A DNA stretch of 64,000 nucleotides from Vibrio vulnificus NBRC 15645 = ATCC 27562. Its GTDB lineage: Bacteria > Pseudomonadota > Gammaproteobacteria > Enterobacterales > Vibrionaceae. The notes under the pieces were generated by a model. That model was not told the DNA's origin. It saw only the letters and a list, made by a program, of their open reading frames with translations, and searched no databases. The stretch lies in the NCBI RefSeq assembly GCF_002224265.1, contig NZ_CP012882.1, forward strand, positions 930,001 to 994,000. Direction: 5' to 3'. Both the position numbers and the translations under genes were made by a program. Shown piece after piece: positions 4,064 to 51,683 of the stretch; the first letter of the stretch is position 1, and every line of letters begins with the position of its first letter.

Positions 4064-4804
4064 ATGAAAAAAGTCGCTTTGATCACTGGATCAAAAGGCG
4101 GGATTGGTTCTGCAATTTCTTCCCAACTTGTTGAAAATGGTTACCGTTTAATTGCTACTTATTACACGGGAAATCATCAATGTGCGTTAGATTGGTTTAA
4201 TGAAAAAGGCTTTACCGAAGATCAGGTCCGCTTATTTGAACTGGATGTGACGAATACAGAAGAGTGTGCCGACCGCTTGAGTAAATTACTGGAAGAAGAG
4301 GGGACGATCGACGTCGTCGTCAATAATGCCGGTATTACTCGTGATGGGGTGTTTAAGAAAATGACCCCGCAATCTTGGTTTGATGTCATTAATACTAACC
4401 TCAACAGTGTGTTCAACGTGACTCAACCGCTCTTTGCCGCCATGTGCGAAAAAGGGGGTGGTCGAGTGATCAATATTTCTTCTGTAAATGGCCTTAAAGG
4501 TCAGTTTGGCCAAGCTAACTATTCTGCGGCTAAAGCTGGCATGATCGGCTTTTCCAAAGCCCTCGCTTACGAAGGTGCCCGCAGTGGTGTGACGGTCAAT
4601 GTCGTTGCTCCTGGTTACACCGCTACACCGATGGTCGAGCAAATGCGCGATGAAGTGCTCGAAGGCATCAAATCTCAAATTCCTATGCAAAGACTGGCAA
4701 CACCAGAAGAAATCGCCAAAGCGGTTGCTTTCTTGGTGAGCGATGCAGGCGCATACATTACGGGTGAAACGCTGTCGGTAAACGGCGGCTTATACATGCA
4801 TTAA
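4064..4804 (+). CDS. phaB: Acetoacetyl-CoA reductase PhaB
   Basis: NADPH-dependent reduction of acetoacetyl-CoA to (R)-3-hydroxybutyryl-CoA, the monomer for PHB. 246 residues, a classical short-chain dehydrogenase: cofactor motif TGSKGGIG near residue 8-15, NNAG near residue 89-92, and the catalytic Ser plus YSAAK (YxxxK). GGAG precedes the ATG by 7 bases. It is the first gene of phaB-phaA-phasin-phaC, and phaA follows after 12 bases. The fabG family is similar in sequence, but the neighbours settle the role. Confidence 0.95.
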   Translation: MKKVALITGSKGGIGSAISSQLVENGYRLIATYYTGNHQCALDWFNEKGFTEDQVRLFELDVTNTEECADRLSKLLEEEGTIDVVVNNAGITRDGVFKKMTPQSWFDVINTNLNSVFNVTQPLFAAMCEKGGGRVINISSVNGLKGQFGQANYSAAKAGMIGFSKALAYEGARSGVTVNVVAPGYTATPMVEQMRDEVLEGIKSQIPMQRLATPEEIAKAVAFLVSDAGAYITGETLSVNGGLYMH

Positions 4805-4816
4805 AGGGATGTTGAG

Positions 4817-6025
4817 ATGGAAAAAGTATTTATTGTTGCGGCCAAACGCACCCCGATTGGCGCTTTTGGCGGCTCGTTGAAAACGGTCGCGGCTGGTGAA
4901 TTGGCATCTGTCGCCATCAAAGGTGCAATTGAACAAGCCAAAGTGGATGCTTCACTGATTGATGAAGTGATCGTGGGTAATGTGGTGAGTGCTGCACAAG
5001 GTATGGGCATTGGCCGTCAAGCCGCAATCCTAGCCGGCATCCCAGCAGAAGTGCCTGCTTACACCCTCAATATGGTGTGTGGCAGTGGCATGAAAACCGT
5101 TATGGATGGCGTTTCTCATATTCGCAGTGGTGACGCAAAAGTGGTGGTAGCAGCTGGTGTCGAAGTGATGTCACAAATTCCATTTACAGTGCCTGCAAAC
5201 GTTCGTGATGGTAACAAGATGGGTCATATGGCACTGCAAGATTTGCTGATTGCTGATGGTTTGACTGATGTTTTCAATCAATACCATATGGGCGTTACAG
5301 CAGAAAATGTCGCGAAAGAAGTGGGCATCACTCGTGATCAGCAAGATGAATATGCATTGGCGAGTCAACAGAAAGCCGTAGCGGCGATAGAAGCTGGCAA
5401 ATTTAAAGACGAAATTGTGCCCGTTGAAGTGACCGTACGTCGCCAAACAGTGACGTTTGATACCGATGAATATCCAAAAGCCAACGCAACACTTGAAGCG
5501 CTAAAAGGGTTACGCCCAGCCTTTGATAAAGAAGGCACGGTCACCGCGGGCAATGCTTCTGGCATTAATGATGGGGCGAGTGCCGTCATTCTGGCATCCG
5601 AGCAAGCGGTGAAAGAATACGGTTTGCAACCTATCGCAGAAGTGGTGAGTTACGCACAGTCTGGCCTTGACCCCAAAATCATGGGATTAGGTCCCGTAGA
5701 GGCCGTTAGCAAAGCGCTTGAAAAAGCACAACTGAATACAGCAGACATTGATGTGTATGAGTTGAATGAAGCCTTTGCTGCCCAAGCACTAGGTGTGATT
5801 CATCAACTTGCCGATAAACACCAAGTGCCAGTGGCATCGATTCAAGACAAAGCGAACCCGAATGGTGGTGCAATCGCATTAGGGCATCCGCTAGGTGCGT
5901 CGGGTAACCGAATTCTCGTGACGTTAATTCATGAGCTTCAAAAACAAAACGGTCAGTATGGCGTTGCGTCACTATGTGTTGGTGGCGGTATGGGAACGGC
6001 AGTGATTGTGAAAGCAGTTAAGTAA
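4817..6025 (+). CDS. phaA: Acetyl-CoA acetyltransferase (beta-ketothiolase) PhaA
   Basis: Condenses two acetyl-CoA to acetoacetyl-CoA, the first step of PHB synthesis. 402 residues. The acyl-accepting Cys is residue 88 in NMVCGSGMK, the catalytic His is in GHPLGASG, and the second Cys is in CVGGGMGTA, the full biosynthetic thiolase set. It shares an operon with phaB (12-base gap) and precedes the phasin gene. A second thiolase, fadA, occurs in this window at 39.6-40.8 kb and belongs to the degradative type. Confidence 0.95.
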   Translation: MEKVFIVAAKRTPIGAFGGSLKTVAAGELASVAIKGAIEQAKVDASLIDEVIVGNVVSAAQGMGIGRQAAILAGIPAEVPAYTLNMVCGSGMKTVMDGVSHIRSGDAKVVVAAGVEVMSQIPFTVPANVRDGNKMGHMALQDLLIADGLTDVFNQYHMGVTAENVAKEVGITRDQQDEYALASQQKAVAAIEAGKFKDEIVPVEVTVRRQTVTFDTDEYPKANATLEALKGLRPAFDKEGTVTAGNASGINDGASAVILASEQAVKEYGLQPIAEVVSYAQSGLDPKIMGLGPVEAVSKALEKAQLNTADIDVYELNEAFAAQALGVIHQLADKHQVPVASIQDKANPNGGAIALGHPLGASGNRILVTLIHELQKQNGQYGVASLCVGGGMGTAVIVKAVK

Positions 6026-47737: not shown

Positions 47738-47909
47738 CGTTACAGATTGATTGGCGACTCGATCATTTAAGTCGCGCCGGAGATCTGGGAGTCGCTAAGT
47801 TTTAATCACAACTAGACTAGTTAGAGGCTTTGATGTGATGGACGCACCTCCCTTCTAGCGTCGTTGTACCAAACTAATAGTACAACCATTGAGAGCAGGA
47901 GTAACAAGT

Positions 47910-48944
47910 ATGCCTATTAAAGTTGTCGGTATTGATATAGCGAAAAATCTCTTCCAAGTATGTGTGCTGGGTACAAATGGACAAATTTTATCAAACAGAA
48001 AGGTAAAGCGAGATAAGCTTCTAGATACTGTCCGCCAACTACCTGAGCAAACTGCTCTTGCAATGGAGTCATGTGCAACTTCTCATCATTGGGGCAGAAT
48101 ATTTCAAGAGCTAGGATACACAGTGGCTCTTATTCCAGCTCAGCATGTAAAACCATTTGTTGGGCGGCAAAAGAACGATGCTAATGATGCAAGAGCCATT
48201 TGCGAAGCCTATTCTAGACCTAATCTTCACTTCGTTCCTGTTAAGTCTGTTGAACAACAAGACCTCAAAGCGATACGCAGTGTCCGTAAACGTTTGGTAG
48301 AGAACAGAACTGCCTTGGCGAACCAGATCAGAGGATTGGCTGCTGAATACGGGGTAGTATTTCCTCTCTCCATTAAAGCTTTACGAAGTCATTTACCGCT
48401 AGCTCTTGAAGACGCAGAGAATGCTCTTTCCCCAGTAATGAGGAACTTACTGCAAACTTTATACTGTGACTTTGTCAGTCTTAGCGAAGAGATAGATGAA
48501 ATGACCCAAAGTGTCACCATGTTGAGTCAGCAAAATCCAAAATATGAGGCTATTCGGAATATTCCTGGTTTTGGTCCGATTTTGACAGCGGCTCTGATTA
48601 GTGAGGTAGGTGCTGGAAACCAATTCCAAAATGGTCGCCAGTTCTCAGCATGGTGTGGCCTAGTTCCAAAACAAAATAGTACAGGTGGAAAAAGTAGTCT
48701 CGGCTCTCTATCGAAGAATGGCAATCGCGAATTGAGAGCATTACTTATCCACGGTGCTCGCGCAGTGGTTCGGTGCGGAGCTAACAAAGCGGATGCTATG
48801 GGAGTATGGTTGAGAGGACTCATTGCACGCCGAGGCAAAGCAAAAGCGATTGTCGCTCTTGCAAACAAGCTCGGTCGGGTAGCATGGCACATCTTGGCGA
48901 AAAATAGCGAATACGATATTAATCAGGCATTTAAGCCTGTTTGA
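47910..48944 (+). CDS. IS110-family DEDD transposase, left copy
   Basis: 344 residues from ATG 47910 (AGGAG 8 bases upstream); TTG 47889 would add seven residues without a site. The RuvC-like domain carries D9 (VVGIDIAKN), E53 (AMESC) and D90/D93 (KNDANDA). The C-terminal Transposase_20 domain has IPGFGPILTAALI and the serine-containing KQNSTGGKSSLGSLSKNGN. It works with a structured guide RNA made from the same element. It is identical to the right-hand copy, so the duplication is recent. Confidence 0.95.
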   Translation: MPIKVVGIDIAKNLFQVCVLGTNGQILSNRKVKRDKLLDTVRQLPEQTALAMESCATSHHWGRIFQELGYTVALIPAQHVKPFVGRQKNDANDARAICEAYSRPNLHFVPVKSVEQQDLKAIRSVRKRLVENRTALANQIRGLAAEYGVVFPLSIKALRSHLPLALEDAENALSPVMRNLLQTLYCDFVSLSEEIDEMTQSVTMLSQQNPKYEAIRNIPGFGPILTAALISEVGAGNQFQNGRQFSAWCGLVPKQNSTGGKSSLGSLSKNGNRELRALLIHGARAVVRCGANKADAMGVWLRGLIARRGKAKAIVALANKLGRVAWHILAKNSEYDINQAFKPV

Positions 48945-49180
48945 TTAAAAATACTAAGTTCTAAGGAGATATCCTCAAGAAGCAACTGAGTTTGCAATAG
49001 CTGATGAATAAACGGTGAACCATCCTTACTACACTCTGATAACGCAACGAGGTTATTGAAACCGAGGCTTTGAAAAGACAGTGAGGAGCGGATTACATCA
49101 TGGCGCAGGTCACGTAGTAGACCTAGAAAGACGTCGGATATATGTTAGCGACCGTATCATTGAATCAGTCATTGCATCCT
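48945..49180 (+). ncRNA. Predicted bridge/seeker RNA region of the left IS110 copy
   Basis: Non-coding 3' part of the element. Four guide-like segments occur in two loops. Target loop: GCAACG (49044-49049), complementary to TGTTGC with one wobble, and GGCTTTG (49066-49072), identical to the left half of the target; a short hairpin GGTT/AACC lies between them. Donor loop: ATTACATCA (49092-49100), complementary to the left end TGATGTGAT with one wobble, and ATATATG (49138-49144), identical to the right end; hairpin AGGTC/GACCT lies between. IS1111 elements carry this RNA 3' of the transposase. Confidence 0.75.
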
Positions 49181-49198
49181 GAGGTGCGTCCATATATG

Positions 49199-50238
49199 TT
49201 GCTTAAATCGATGGAACTAAATCAAGAAGCTACGATCTGATCGGCTACACCCATCAGTCCCCGTAGCCTCATGCCTAAACCTTGGTACAAAACAACAAAC
49301 TGGAAGCAGTACAATAAAGCCTTAATCAACCGTGGTTCTCTGACTTTTTGGATTGATGAGGAAACGATAGCCGAGTGGAAGCAAAACAAACAAGGTAAGC
49401 GTGGTAGACCTCGCCGATTCAGCGACTTAGCCATTACTACCGCACTAACGGTGAAACGCGTTTTCTCTATGCCATTGAGAGCGCTGCAAGGTTTTCTAGA
49501 CTCAGTATTTAAGCTAGCTAACATCCCGCTTGTTTGTCCGCACTACACCTGTATAAGCCGCCGAGCTAAGGAAGTTGAGGTTTCATTTAAAACCAAAACC
49601 AGAGGTGCGATACAACATCTGGCAATTGATGCCACGGGCCTCAAGGTTTATGGCGAAGGTGAATGGAAGGTCAAGAAGCATGGAACTGATGGGAAGCGCA
49701 GAGTGTGGCGAAAGTTGCATATCGCAGTAGATACAAGCACCCACGAAATAGTCGCAGCAGAACTGAGCTTATCTAATGTAACCGATGCCGAAGTGCTTCC
49801 AAACTTACTCAAGCAGACACGTCGTAAAATCATTGAGATATCGGGTGATGGCGCTTATGACACAAGGGATTGCCATGATGCTATACGGATCAAGCAAGCA
49901 GCTCCACTTATCCCGCCACGAGAAGGGGCGGCCTTCTGGGAGCAAGGACATCCTCGCAACTTAGCAGTAGGTTGCCAGAAGCTCTACGGTTCCAACAAGA
50001 AGTGGAAAAAGCGGTATGGCTATCACAAACGCTCGCTATCAGAGACAGCAATGTATCGAGTGAAACAGTTGTTAGGCGGGAAATTAAGCCTGAGAAACTA
50101 CAACGCTCAAGTTGGCGAGACTTACGCTATGATCATGGCGCGGAATAAGCTTACAGGGTTAGGTATGCCTGAAACTCAGTGTGTTGTATGAGAATTGTTC
50201 AATTTCAGGCAATTTGGCTCTCTGACCAAATTACGCAA
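49199..50238 (+). mobile_element. Internal part of the IS903-type IS5-family element
   Basis: 1040 bp lying between the two IS110 copies, starting TTGCTTAAATCG and ending CCAAATTACGCAA. Both outermost 7 bases of the terminal repeats have been separated from it by the insertions, so the element should no longer be mobile by its own transposase unless the IS110 copies leave precisely. Confidence 0.88.
49271..50191 (+). CDS. IS5-family (IS903 group) DDE transposase
   Basis: 306 residues, full length for the group (IS903 307). DDE residues are D120 (LAIDATGL), D193 (SGDGAYDT) and E258. The signature Y-2-R-3-E-6-K is complete (Y251, R254, E258, K265 in YHKRSLSETAMYRVKQ). The frame is intact although both ends of its element are split, so the protein may still be made and could act on other copies. 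Confidence 0.95.
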   Translation: MPKPWYKTTNWKQYNKALINRGSLTFWIDEETIAEWKQNKQGKRGRPRRFSDLAITTALTVKRVFSMPLRALQGFLDSVFKLANIPLVCPHYTCISRRAKEVEVSFKTKTRGAIQHLAIDATGLKVYGEGEWKVKKHGTDGKRRVWRKLHIAVDTSTHEIVAAELSLSNVTDAEVLPNLLKQTRRKIIEISGDGAYDTRDCHDAIRIKQAAPLIPPREGAAFWEQGHPRNLAVGCQKLYGSNKKWKKRYGYHKRSLSETAMYRVKQLLGGKLSLRNYNAQVGETYAMIMARNKLTGLGMPETQCVV

Positions 50239-50256
50239 CATATATGGACGCACCTC

Positions 50257-50492
50257 AGGATGCAATGACTGATTCAATGATACGGTCGCTAACATATATC
50301 CGACGTCTTTCTAGGTCTACTACGTGACCTGCGCCATGATGTAATCCGCTCCTCACTGTCTTTTCAAAGCCTCGGTTTCAATAACCTCGTTGCGTTATCA
50401 GAGTGTAGTAAGGATGGTTCACCGTTTATTCATCAGCTATTGCAAACTCAGTTGCTTCTTGAGGATATCTCCTTAGAACTTAGTATTTTTAA
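50257..50492 (-). ncRNA. Predicted bridge/seeker RNA region of the right IS110 copy
   Basis: Mirror image of the left region. Guide-like segments are at 50388-50393 and 50365-50371 (target) and 50337-50345 and 50293-50299 (donor). The target of this copy has TTGCGT instead of TTGCTT; the extended guide ACGCAACG fits this end slightly better. Confidence 0.75.
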
Positions 50493-51527
50493 TCAAACAG
50501 GCTTAAATGCCTGATTAATATCGTATTCGCTATTTTTCGCCAAGATGTGCCATGCTACCCGACCGAGCTTGTTTGCAAGAGCGACAATCGCTTTTGCTTT
50601 GCCTCGGCGTGCAATGAGTCCTCTCAACCATACTCCCATAGCATCCGCTTTGTTAGCTCCGCACCGAACCACTGCGCGAGCACCGTGGATAAGTAATGCT
50701 CTCAATTCGCGATTGCCATTCTTCGATAGAGAGCCGAGACTACTTTTTCCACCTGTACTATTTTGTTTTGGAACTAGGCCACACCATGCTGAGAACTGGC
50801 GACCATTTTGGAATTGGTTTCCAGCACCTACCTCACTAATCAGAGCCGCTGTCAAAATCGGACCAAAACCAGGAATATTCCGAATAGCCTCATATTTTGG
50901 ATTTTGCTGACTCAACATGGTGACACTTTGGGTCATTTCATCTATCTCTTCGCTAAGACTGACAAAGTCACAGTATAAAGTTTGCAGTAAGTTCCTCATT
51001 ACTGGGGAAAGAGCATTCTCTGCGTCTTCAAGAGCTAGCGGTAAATGACTTCGTAAAGCTTTAATGGAGAGAGGAAATACTACCCCGTATTCAGCAGCCA
51101 ATCCTCTGATCTGGTTCGCCAAGGCAGTTCTGTTCTCTACCAAACGTTTACGGACACTGCGTATCGCTTTGAGGTCTTGTTGTTCAACAGACTTAACAGG
51201 AACGAAGTGAAGATTAGGTCTAGAATAGGCTTCGCAAATGGCTCTTGCATCATTAGCATCGTTCTTTTGCCGCCCAACAAATGGTTTTACATGCTGAGCT
51301 GGAATAAGAGCCACTGTGTATCCTAGCTCTTGAAATATTCTGCCCCAATGATGAGAAGTTGCACATGACTCCATTGCAAGAGCAGTTTGCTCAGGTAGTT
51401 GGCGGACAGTATCTAGAAGCTTATCTCGCTTTACCTTTCTGTTTGATAAAATTTGTCCATTTGTACCCAGCACACATACTTGGAAGAGATTTTTCGCTAT
51501 ATCAATACCGACAACTTTAATAGGCAT
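50493..51527 (-). CDS. IS110-family DEDD transposase, right copy
   Basis: 344 residues, identical in sequence to the left-hand copy at 47910-48944, with the same start context. Intact, so both copies can supply transposase. Confidence 0.95.
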   Translation of the reverse strand: MPIKVVGIDIAKNLFQVCVLGTNGQILSNRKVKRDKLLDTVRQLPEQTALAMESCATSHHWGRIFQELGYTVALIPAQHVKPFVGRQKNDANDARAICEAYSRPNLHFVPVKSVEQQDLKAIRSVRKRLVENRTALANQIRGLAAEYGVVFPLSIKALRSHLPLALEDAENALSPVMRNLLQTLYCDFVSLSEEIDEMTQSVTMLSQQNPKYEAIRNIPGFGPILTAALISEVGAGNQFQNGRQFSAWCGLVPKQNSTGGKSSLGSLSKNGNRELRALLIHGARAVVRCGANKADAMGVWLRGLIARRGKAKAIVALANKLGRVAWHILAKNSEYDINQAFKPV

Positions 51528-51683
51528 ACTTGTTACTCCTGCTCTCAATGGTTGTACTATTAGTTTGGTACAACGACGCTAGAAGGGAGGTGCGTCCATC
51601 ACATCAAAGCCGCTTACAGGTGGCAAAAAACGAGATGTGTTCAGCTAAATCTGACAATAAAGCTGCTGCCGAGTTGAAAAATC

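Follow-up and report, generated by a model that had tools for sequence, protein, structure and literature searches.

The window, by which we mean the whole 64,000-nucleotide stretch of Vibrio vulnificus DNA that was analysed, appears to carry an intact IS1111-type insertion sequence with an RNA that guides its insertion into the ends of IS5/IS903-type elements, a reading to which we assign a probability of about 0.92. This reading is built on the element itself, its ends and its empty site, on target guides that co-vary with the targets of related elements, and on a conserved RNA structure.

An IS1111-type element in both ends of an IS5-type element

The guide region belongs to an IS1111-type insertion sequence that is complete, measures 1366 bp and lies at 47831-49196 on the forward strand (copy 1). 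Its sub-terminal inverted repeats, ATGGACGCACCT on the left (47838-47849, +) and AGGTGCGTCCAT on the right (49182-49193, +), agree at 12 of 12 bp, the IS1111 criterion being 11-13 bp, and beyond them lie extensions of 7 bp (TGATGTG, 47831-47837, +, the start of the right half of the donor site) and 3 bp (ATA, 49194-49196, +), in the register that restores an intact IS5 terminus. This arrangement of sub-terminal repeats and extensions, 7 bp on one side and 3 bp on the other, is the end rule given for IS1111 in passages of PMC11187229. The transposase gene (47910-48944, +) encodes 344 aa from an ATG that is also the start of the annotated homologue in L019, the listed open reading frame beginning at a TTG (47889-48944). 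Its product has the domains PF01548 and PF02371 and matches NF033542, the NCBI model for 'IS110 family RNA-guided transposase', which corresponds to the DEDD N-terminal plus PF02371 C-terminal arrangement of IS1111, and the IS1111 C-terminal motif GL-P----S(T)G is present as GLVPKQNSTG. The non-coding stretch downstream of the gene is 252 bp long, as opposed to 79 bp upstream of the ATG; membership in the IS110 group (IS621-like) was rejected, since the RNA region lies downstream and not upstream of the gene. Assignment to IS1111 is thereby supported by every feature of that group open to checking in sequence, namely the sub-terminal repeats, their extensions, the DEDD/PF02371 transposase, the downstream RNA region and the guide order.

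The window holds a second, inverted copy identical to the first (copy 2, 50241-51606, -), a third identical copy is found elsewhere on the same contig, and all three sit in IS5/IS903-type ends. Copies 1 and 2 interrupt opposite ends of one and the same IS5/IS903-type (ISVa2-like) insertion sequence, whose body, with both termini interrupted, lies at 49197-50240 (+) and encodes an IS5-type transposase of 306 aa (49271-50191, +; PF13737, PF01609, NF033579). Copy 1 has severed GGCTT (47826-47830, +), the outermost 5 bp of the left terminus, and copy 2 has severed AAGCC (51607-51611, +), which is GGCTT on the minus strand and the outermost 5 bp of the right terminus. The uninterrupted site is seen in L121 and L122, intact IS5-type relatives that start at both ends with GGCTTTGTTGCGTAATTC, while other relatives of the window's IS5-type element, at ~91% identity, are annotated as ISVa2. 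When the flanks of copies 1 and 2 are joined they give GGCTTTGTTGCGTAATTC apart from small differences after TTGC, so that target duplication is absent. The third copy occupies the left terminus GACTTTGTTGC of another IS5-type element (L115), the right terminus of which, at about 2521-2539 of L115 (GGCTTTGTTTCCTAATTCG / GGCTTTGTTTCC), is empty; GGCTTTGTTTCC is perhaps a natural resistant target variant. No 9-bp duplication, which we take to be the length for IS903, is present around the window's IS5-type element (47817-47825 against 51612-51620). The sequences on its two outer sides may therefore be of separate origin, perhaps because element copies recombined with one another once inserted.

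The same choice of site recurs in related elements. Element length and flanks are as in the window in G133, of the same genus (L008), and in Vibrio rotiferianus (L033), and in Shewanella oneidensis (L025) an element with the right guide UAGGAAAC is inserted in a terminus of such a kind, GGCTT-TGTTTCCTAAATCG. Among the 14 non-redundant elements with a TGTT right flank, an IS5 transposase reading lies 53-97 bp from the junction in 10 and 1454 bp away in L022, with another IS110-family gene between; none was found close by in L019, L021 and L023. The intervening gene in L022 (about 4170-5204) encodes a second IS110-family transposase, 46% identical, and separates the first element from the gene of the IS5-type element which that element interrupts.

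Shortened and composite relatives were also observed. L123 (genome G028) is a derivative of ~264 bp that keeps both ends, is without most of the transposase gene and the guide RNA, and sits in the apparent right terminus of an ISVa2-like element; it is possibly a MITE mobilised in trans, or possibly the product of a deletion after insertion. L026 (2501-3011, plasmid hit H10) is a degenerate copy of 511 bp in an IS5-like end. Its right target guide has been lost, and what it retains is both ends, the donor guides and the left target guide. Five other Vibrio plasmid hits (within H10-H15) are of the same length and of similar identity. In Vibrio crassostreae p1 (L030, 2497-4184) an apparent hybrid has a left end of the IS5-hunting type, a right end and RNA that resemble another IS110-family element, and a different right flank.

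Guide segments, RNA structure and co-variation with targets

An earlier note on this DNA had proposed a bridge (seeker) RNA at 48945-49198 with four readable guide segments. The location holds, but the element's non-coding part, the putative source of the bridge/seekRNA, stops at 49196 (48945-49196, +), the TG at 49197-49198 being target, or a core common with the left end. The four segments, GCAACG (49044-49049), GGCTTTG (49066-49072), ATTACATCA (49092-49100) and ATATATG (49138-49144), are right to the base; each occurs once in 48945-49196, and with G.U allowed they match TGTTGC, GGCTT-TG, TGATGTGAT and ATATA-TG, respectively. The right target guide is nevertheless longer than GCAACG: as AACGCAAC (49041-49048, +), predicted to pair with the right half of the target, it also covers the variable base that follows TTGC, a position at which copy 1 has a mismatch (guide C, target T). 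The left target guide GGCTTTG (+) has the letters of the left half plus core, the left half GGCTT being 47826-47830; that note gave the target sequence correctly and missed its identity as an IS5 terminal repeat. The hairpins that it placed inside both guide pairs can likewise be read, a small one between the target guides at 49051-49063 (+; GGTT 49051-49054 with AACC 49060-49063) and another at 49107-49124 (+; AGGTC 49107-49111 with GACCT 49120-49124) between the right donor guide ATTACATCA and the left donor guide ATATATG (both +). The top-strand complement lies 5' of the bottom-strand match, as the IS1111 seekRNA requires.

Chance matches in a region without RNA function would be one way to explain these segments, and single pairs do arise at random: when the region was shuffled by dinucleotides and searched under the G.U and spacing rules used for the real sequence, the target pair was seen in 46 of 20000 and the donor pair in 79 of 20000. 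All four segments in order, as opposed to single pairs, were seen in 0/20000, and there is co-variation in both guides and helices. Chance was therefore rejected, and we give it next to no weight.

The conserved structured core of the putative RNA lies at 48984-49150 (+). A consensus structure based on the 30 of 38 distinct RNA sequences that were aligned has 25 predicted pairs, 10 of them with both-sided changes; the structure as scored included one misplaced extra helix (a target-guide hairpin, 15.3% paired), which falls in wrong columns because the guide region aligns with gaps. Paired cells amounted to 89.1% against 82.6% in shuffles and the covariation score to 0.277 against 0.147 (sd 0.008), with 0/500 shuffles as high in either case, and when the structure was slid along the alignment the covariation score was at most 0.102. 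Further standard pair types, one of the five measures, were not in excess (22 against a shuffle mean of 23.0, 442/500 as high). The donor-guide hairpin (helix 7) has both-sided changes at 3/4 pairs. Taken sequence by sequence, a target-guide stem of at least 4 bp is found in 39/46 elements against 44% of shuffles, whereas a donor-guide stem of at least 5 bp, found in 44/46 elements, is a weak test because 62% of shuffles also have one. In the predicted consensus ACATCA pairs with an upstream TGATG. Membership in a known Rfam family was rejected, there being no match up to E = 1 in 47800-51650.

For the comparison of guides with targets, 123 transposase hits (the window plus collected loci) were reduced to 67 by an end filter and to 57 non-redundant elements, and the 45 with TGATGT ends and long enough flanks, including the three copies of the window's own genome, were tested; several divergent relatives were left out, their ends having been misplaced by the automatic search. 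Fit was scored out of 15, with G.U counted as half and with the guides allowed to shift position against foreign targets just as against own ones. The guides scored at least 12/15 against their own target in 40/45 elements, as compared with means of ~9.4 to 10.8 per element against foreign targets, and in 19/45 no foreign target scored as well as the element's own; the remaining equal foreign scores probably come largely from near-identical targets of the same class that were counted as foreign. When each of the 19 guide classes was represented by a single element, the fits added up to 248, the permuted mean being 194.5 (sd 5.7, maximum 229), and 0/100000 permutations reached it. Individual guides changed with their targets: UAGGAAAC with TGTTTCCTA in Shewanella (L025), UAAGCAAC with TGTTGCTTA in L013, L023 and L035, UACGCAAC with TGTTGCGTA in L009, and in L011 both UUUUGGAC with TGTCCAAAA and GGAAAUG with GGAAA-TG.

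The co-variation that the earlier note had put forward as a check is thus present across the set, and it is broken by L079, a counter-example of the very kind (another target, little-changed guides) that the note had named as speaking against its reading. L079 is 91.9% identical to L080 and its guides are little changed, but its insertion site is different; its own target scores 9/15, and 42/44 foreign targets are equal or better. The other poor fits are L041 and L083 (10.5) and L039 and L067 (11), with weak left halves in L039, L041 and L067 and a disrupted guide region in L083. The left guide GGCUUUC of L025 has a mismatch at the core G, and the right guide of L050 fits only 5.5/8. At the variable base in the close IS5 clade, read by eye, the guide base C goes with G, T or A in 10 elements and the guide base A with T in all three of its elements, which is too few elements for a claim that guides track the G/T variant.

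A different explanation would leave the choice of target to the transposase or to a feature of IS5 ends, such as their structure or bound IS5 transposase, and would treat the guide-like letters as relics of ancestry. It could draw on the insertions with a TGTT right flank, of which 15/18 are IS5-like by eye (13 of the 14 non-redundant elements, all but L019, plus L123 and L134, but not L124 and L131), and on the nine intact GGCTTTGTTGC sites in the window's own genome, none of which is an IS5 end by eye and all of which are without insertion. Sister elements with other guides, however, sit at correspondingly matching sequences, a correspondence equalled in 0/100000 permutations, and the non-IS5 site of L019 carries the same 11 letters, which together make this explanation very improbable. 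The sites of L019 and of two G034 copies (L124 and L131, of which the right flanks alone were read) are not recognisable as IS5 and have only the short core in common, so that the short core can suffice. Like these three sites, the nine empty ones count against the guided insertion that we favour; for this reading, the preference for IS5 ends agrees either with the greater length of the right guide or with selective loss of insertions that hit genes.

Putative donor guides and the predicted circle junction

The second guide pair bears on how the element recognises its own ends. The left donor guide ATATATG is present in 49/49 elements with TGATGT ends and is invariant in close relatives, and in seven distant relatives with another right end it changes along with the end: with a TG core it is ACACATG in 4/4, and with a CG core ACACACG in 2/3, the third (L092) being one wobble off. 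This tracking, in which few independent changes relate donor guide to IS end, is suggestive rather than proof. For the right donor guide, exact matches are seen between AUAACAUCA and the left end TGATGTTAT of L053 and between UUACAUCA and the left end TGATGTAA of L034; those of most other elements have a wobble or mismatch to the end, and L056 combines the guide AUAACAUCA with the end TGATGTGAT.

Joining of the ends would also create a predicted promoter, TTGCAT-N17-TATGAT, in which the -35-like TTGCAT (49172-49177, +) would in the circle stand 17 nt before a TATGAT spanning the junction. TATGAT arises only with the element ends joined (49195-49196 to 47831-47834). A TTG(A/C/T)A box occurs within the last 60 bases of 43/49 elements, with a spacer to TATGAT of 17 nt in 40/43, 16 nt in 2 and 18 nt in 1.

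In the mechanism that we propose, a single transcript would yield both the transposase and the downstream non-coding RNA, with the strongest transcription most likely coming from the promoter made by the joined ends in a circular intermediate. The first bipartite guide (AACGCAAC ... GGCTTTG) would pair with opposite strands of GGCTT-TG-TTGC(G/T), the IS5/IS903-type terminal inverted repeat, and so bring the transposase there, while the joined IS ends would be the pairing partner of the second (ATTACATCA ... ATATATG). Exchange of strands at TG would then give insertion without target duplication, and the IS5-type element would lose its mobility. Transcription, binding of the transposase, circle formation and this loss of mobility are all inferred, as is donor pairing, which we regard as the least certain step and yet a fairly probable one.

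It could instead be that only the target half guides, as in the seekRNA model. The sub-terminal repeats would then tell the transposase where its own ends are, and the 'donor guides' would be kept for RNA folding and the junction promoter. A short seekRNA with target matches is described as enough for ISEc11 transposition in passages of PMC11187229. The donor guide is moreover constant among close relatives, most right donor guides deviate from the end as described above, the conserved donor letters could also reflect the ACATCA/TGATG helix of the predicted consensus, and the junction TATGAT with its regular spacer would constrain the ends independently. Set against this are the constancy of ATATATG in all 49 elements and its shift with the end in the seven distant relatives, together with the potential donor-binding nucleotides reported for many IS1111 RNAs in passages of PMC11208160, and we consider target guidance alone unlikely, though well worth keeping in mind. 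Donor guidance is accordingly worded here as likely but unproven, and the bridge/seekRNA reading of the earlier note stands through its IS1111 features and its co-varying target guides, with a weaker donor half.

Sister elements, other prey and known systems

Target classes were defined from the bases that open the right flank. On a tree of transposase genes from 39 of the 45 rows (the six omitted being further copies of one genome, near copies or a truncated element), 12 such classes require 11 changes. For the TGGTCA class no fewer than three changes are required, on well-supported branches; these may be three gains, or one gain and two losses. Of the 31 elements outside the TGTT group, 28 (all but L018, L039 and L083) had their flanking readings scanned with Pfam, and 9/28 proved to lie within another insertion sequence or at its margin. 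PF00665 integrase cores lie 6-54 bp from the junction in L043, L053, L059, L061 and L097, and PF01527 lies 2 bp from it in L058; these readings and termini we take to be IS3-type. PF13612 transposase genes, presumably IS982-like, are interrupted in L078, L080 and L088, where the right part begins at profile position 42, and the left part (positions 1-41) is seen in L078, the only one scanned on that side. A transposase or integrase reading is found further off in L017 (160 bp), L034 (232), L028 (243) and L054 (72, left side), and the flanks of the other 15/28 have none. L010, L011, L037, L041, L042, L049, L060, L067 and L108 lie near other genes, the flanks of L056 and L057 contain unrelated families, and the readings of L038, L050, L063 and L079 belong to no family. 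The TGCCCC target class (L037, L042, L049) is a near-palindrome, CGCTTTG/TGCCCCAAAGCG in L049, and resembles a hairpin or repeat, not an insertion sequence.

These flanks raise the tentative idea, which we hold somewhat short of even odds, of a clade of RNA-guided elements that have other insertion sequences as their main habitat and form a natural, RNA-programmed curb on other transposons. If this were true, repeated changes of a few guide letters would have re-aimed sisters between prey that include IS5 termini, IS3-type termini (a class on three separate branches that calls for at least three changes), the beginning of orfA in an IS3-type element and a conserved motif within a PF13612 transposase gene, and guide variants such as UAGGAAAC would follow sequence variants of prey ends. 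The right-junction pattern was found in 8/227 genomes of the genus, one of which (G187, L129) does not have the window element, and in 3/394 genomes of the order sample, one of which (G562, L145) is without the element. Searches for carriers in a phage collection and an E. coli collection gave no match, and one relative (L113) was found among viral contigs.

Since the principle of the bridge/seekRNA is published, the element described here is a further member. It is apparently unnamed, because the closest annotated plasmid relatives (among H1-H7) are called only 'IS110 family transposase' and no paper with ISVa2 together with IS110 was found in a literature search that had most subscription journals outside its scope; as far as was searched, the earlier view of the element as undescribed therefore holds. 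Neither an IS5-end programme nor an IS-directed target spread in one clade was found in that same literature. The apparent additions are its targeting of IS5 ends, the sisters whose targets are elements of IS3 type and PF13612 type, and a predicted junction promoter. Twelve target classes in one clade offer a clean natural test of the IS1111 guide code, since the ends are nearly constant across them and guide and target letters are thus directly comparable. The clade also lends itself to deciding if the donor loop of IS1111 RNAs works, and in it other insertion sequences have become the target of RNA-guided elements on more than one occasion.

A guide RNA downstream of the gene has already been published for IS1111 elements (passages of PMC11187229 and PMC11208160), and a bridge RNA is predicted in 93.0% of them, apparently within the right end (from passages of PMC11208160). 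ISEc11, ISKpn4, ISPst6 and ISPa11, as presented in passages of PMC11187229, are like the window element in their DEDD transposase and in sub-terminal repeats with 7/3 bp extensions, and the IS1111 elements treated there are also alike in the downstream non-coding region, the top-strand complement coming first and the lack of target duplication. ISEc11 has a promoter at the circle junction, where the window element has a promoter-like sequence, and natural re-aiming between relatives is seen there for ISEc11 and ISXne4 as it is here among sister elements (passages of PMC11187229). The window element differs from those elements in that its target is an IS5 terminus and that it is known from sequence alone, and the passages in question describe target matches only, while the window element also has a readable donor pair (PMC11187229). 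In having bipartite guides for target and donor around a common core, the window RNA resembles the IS621 bridge RNA of passages in PMC11208160. It differs from IS621 in lying downstream and not upstream of the transposase gene, in an element with long sub-terminal repeats. Its guides run right half then left half in both loops, an order from which that of IS621 is taken to differ. Another parallel is IS4321/IS5075, members of the IS1111 family that, as Partridge and Hall are said to have described in 2003, target the terminal repeats of Tn21-family transposons. In both cases an IS1111 element is aimed at the terminal repeat of another transposon; the window element, though, has an IS5/IS903-type insertion sequence as its target, and the sisters are aimed at IS3-type and PF13612-type elements.
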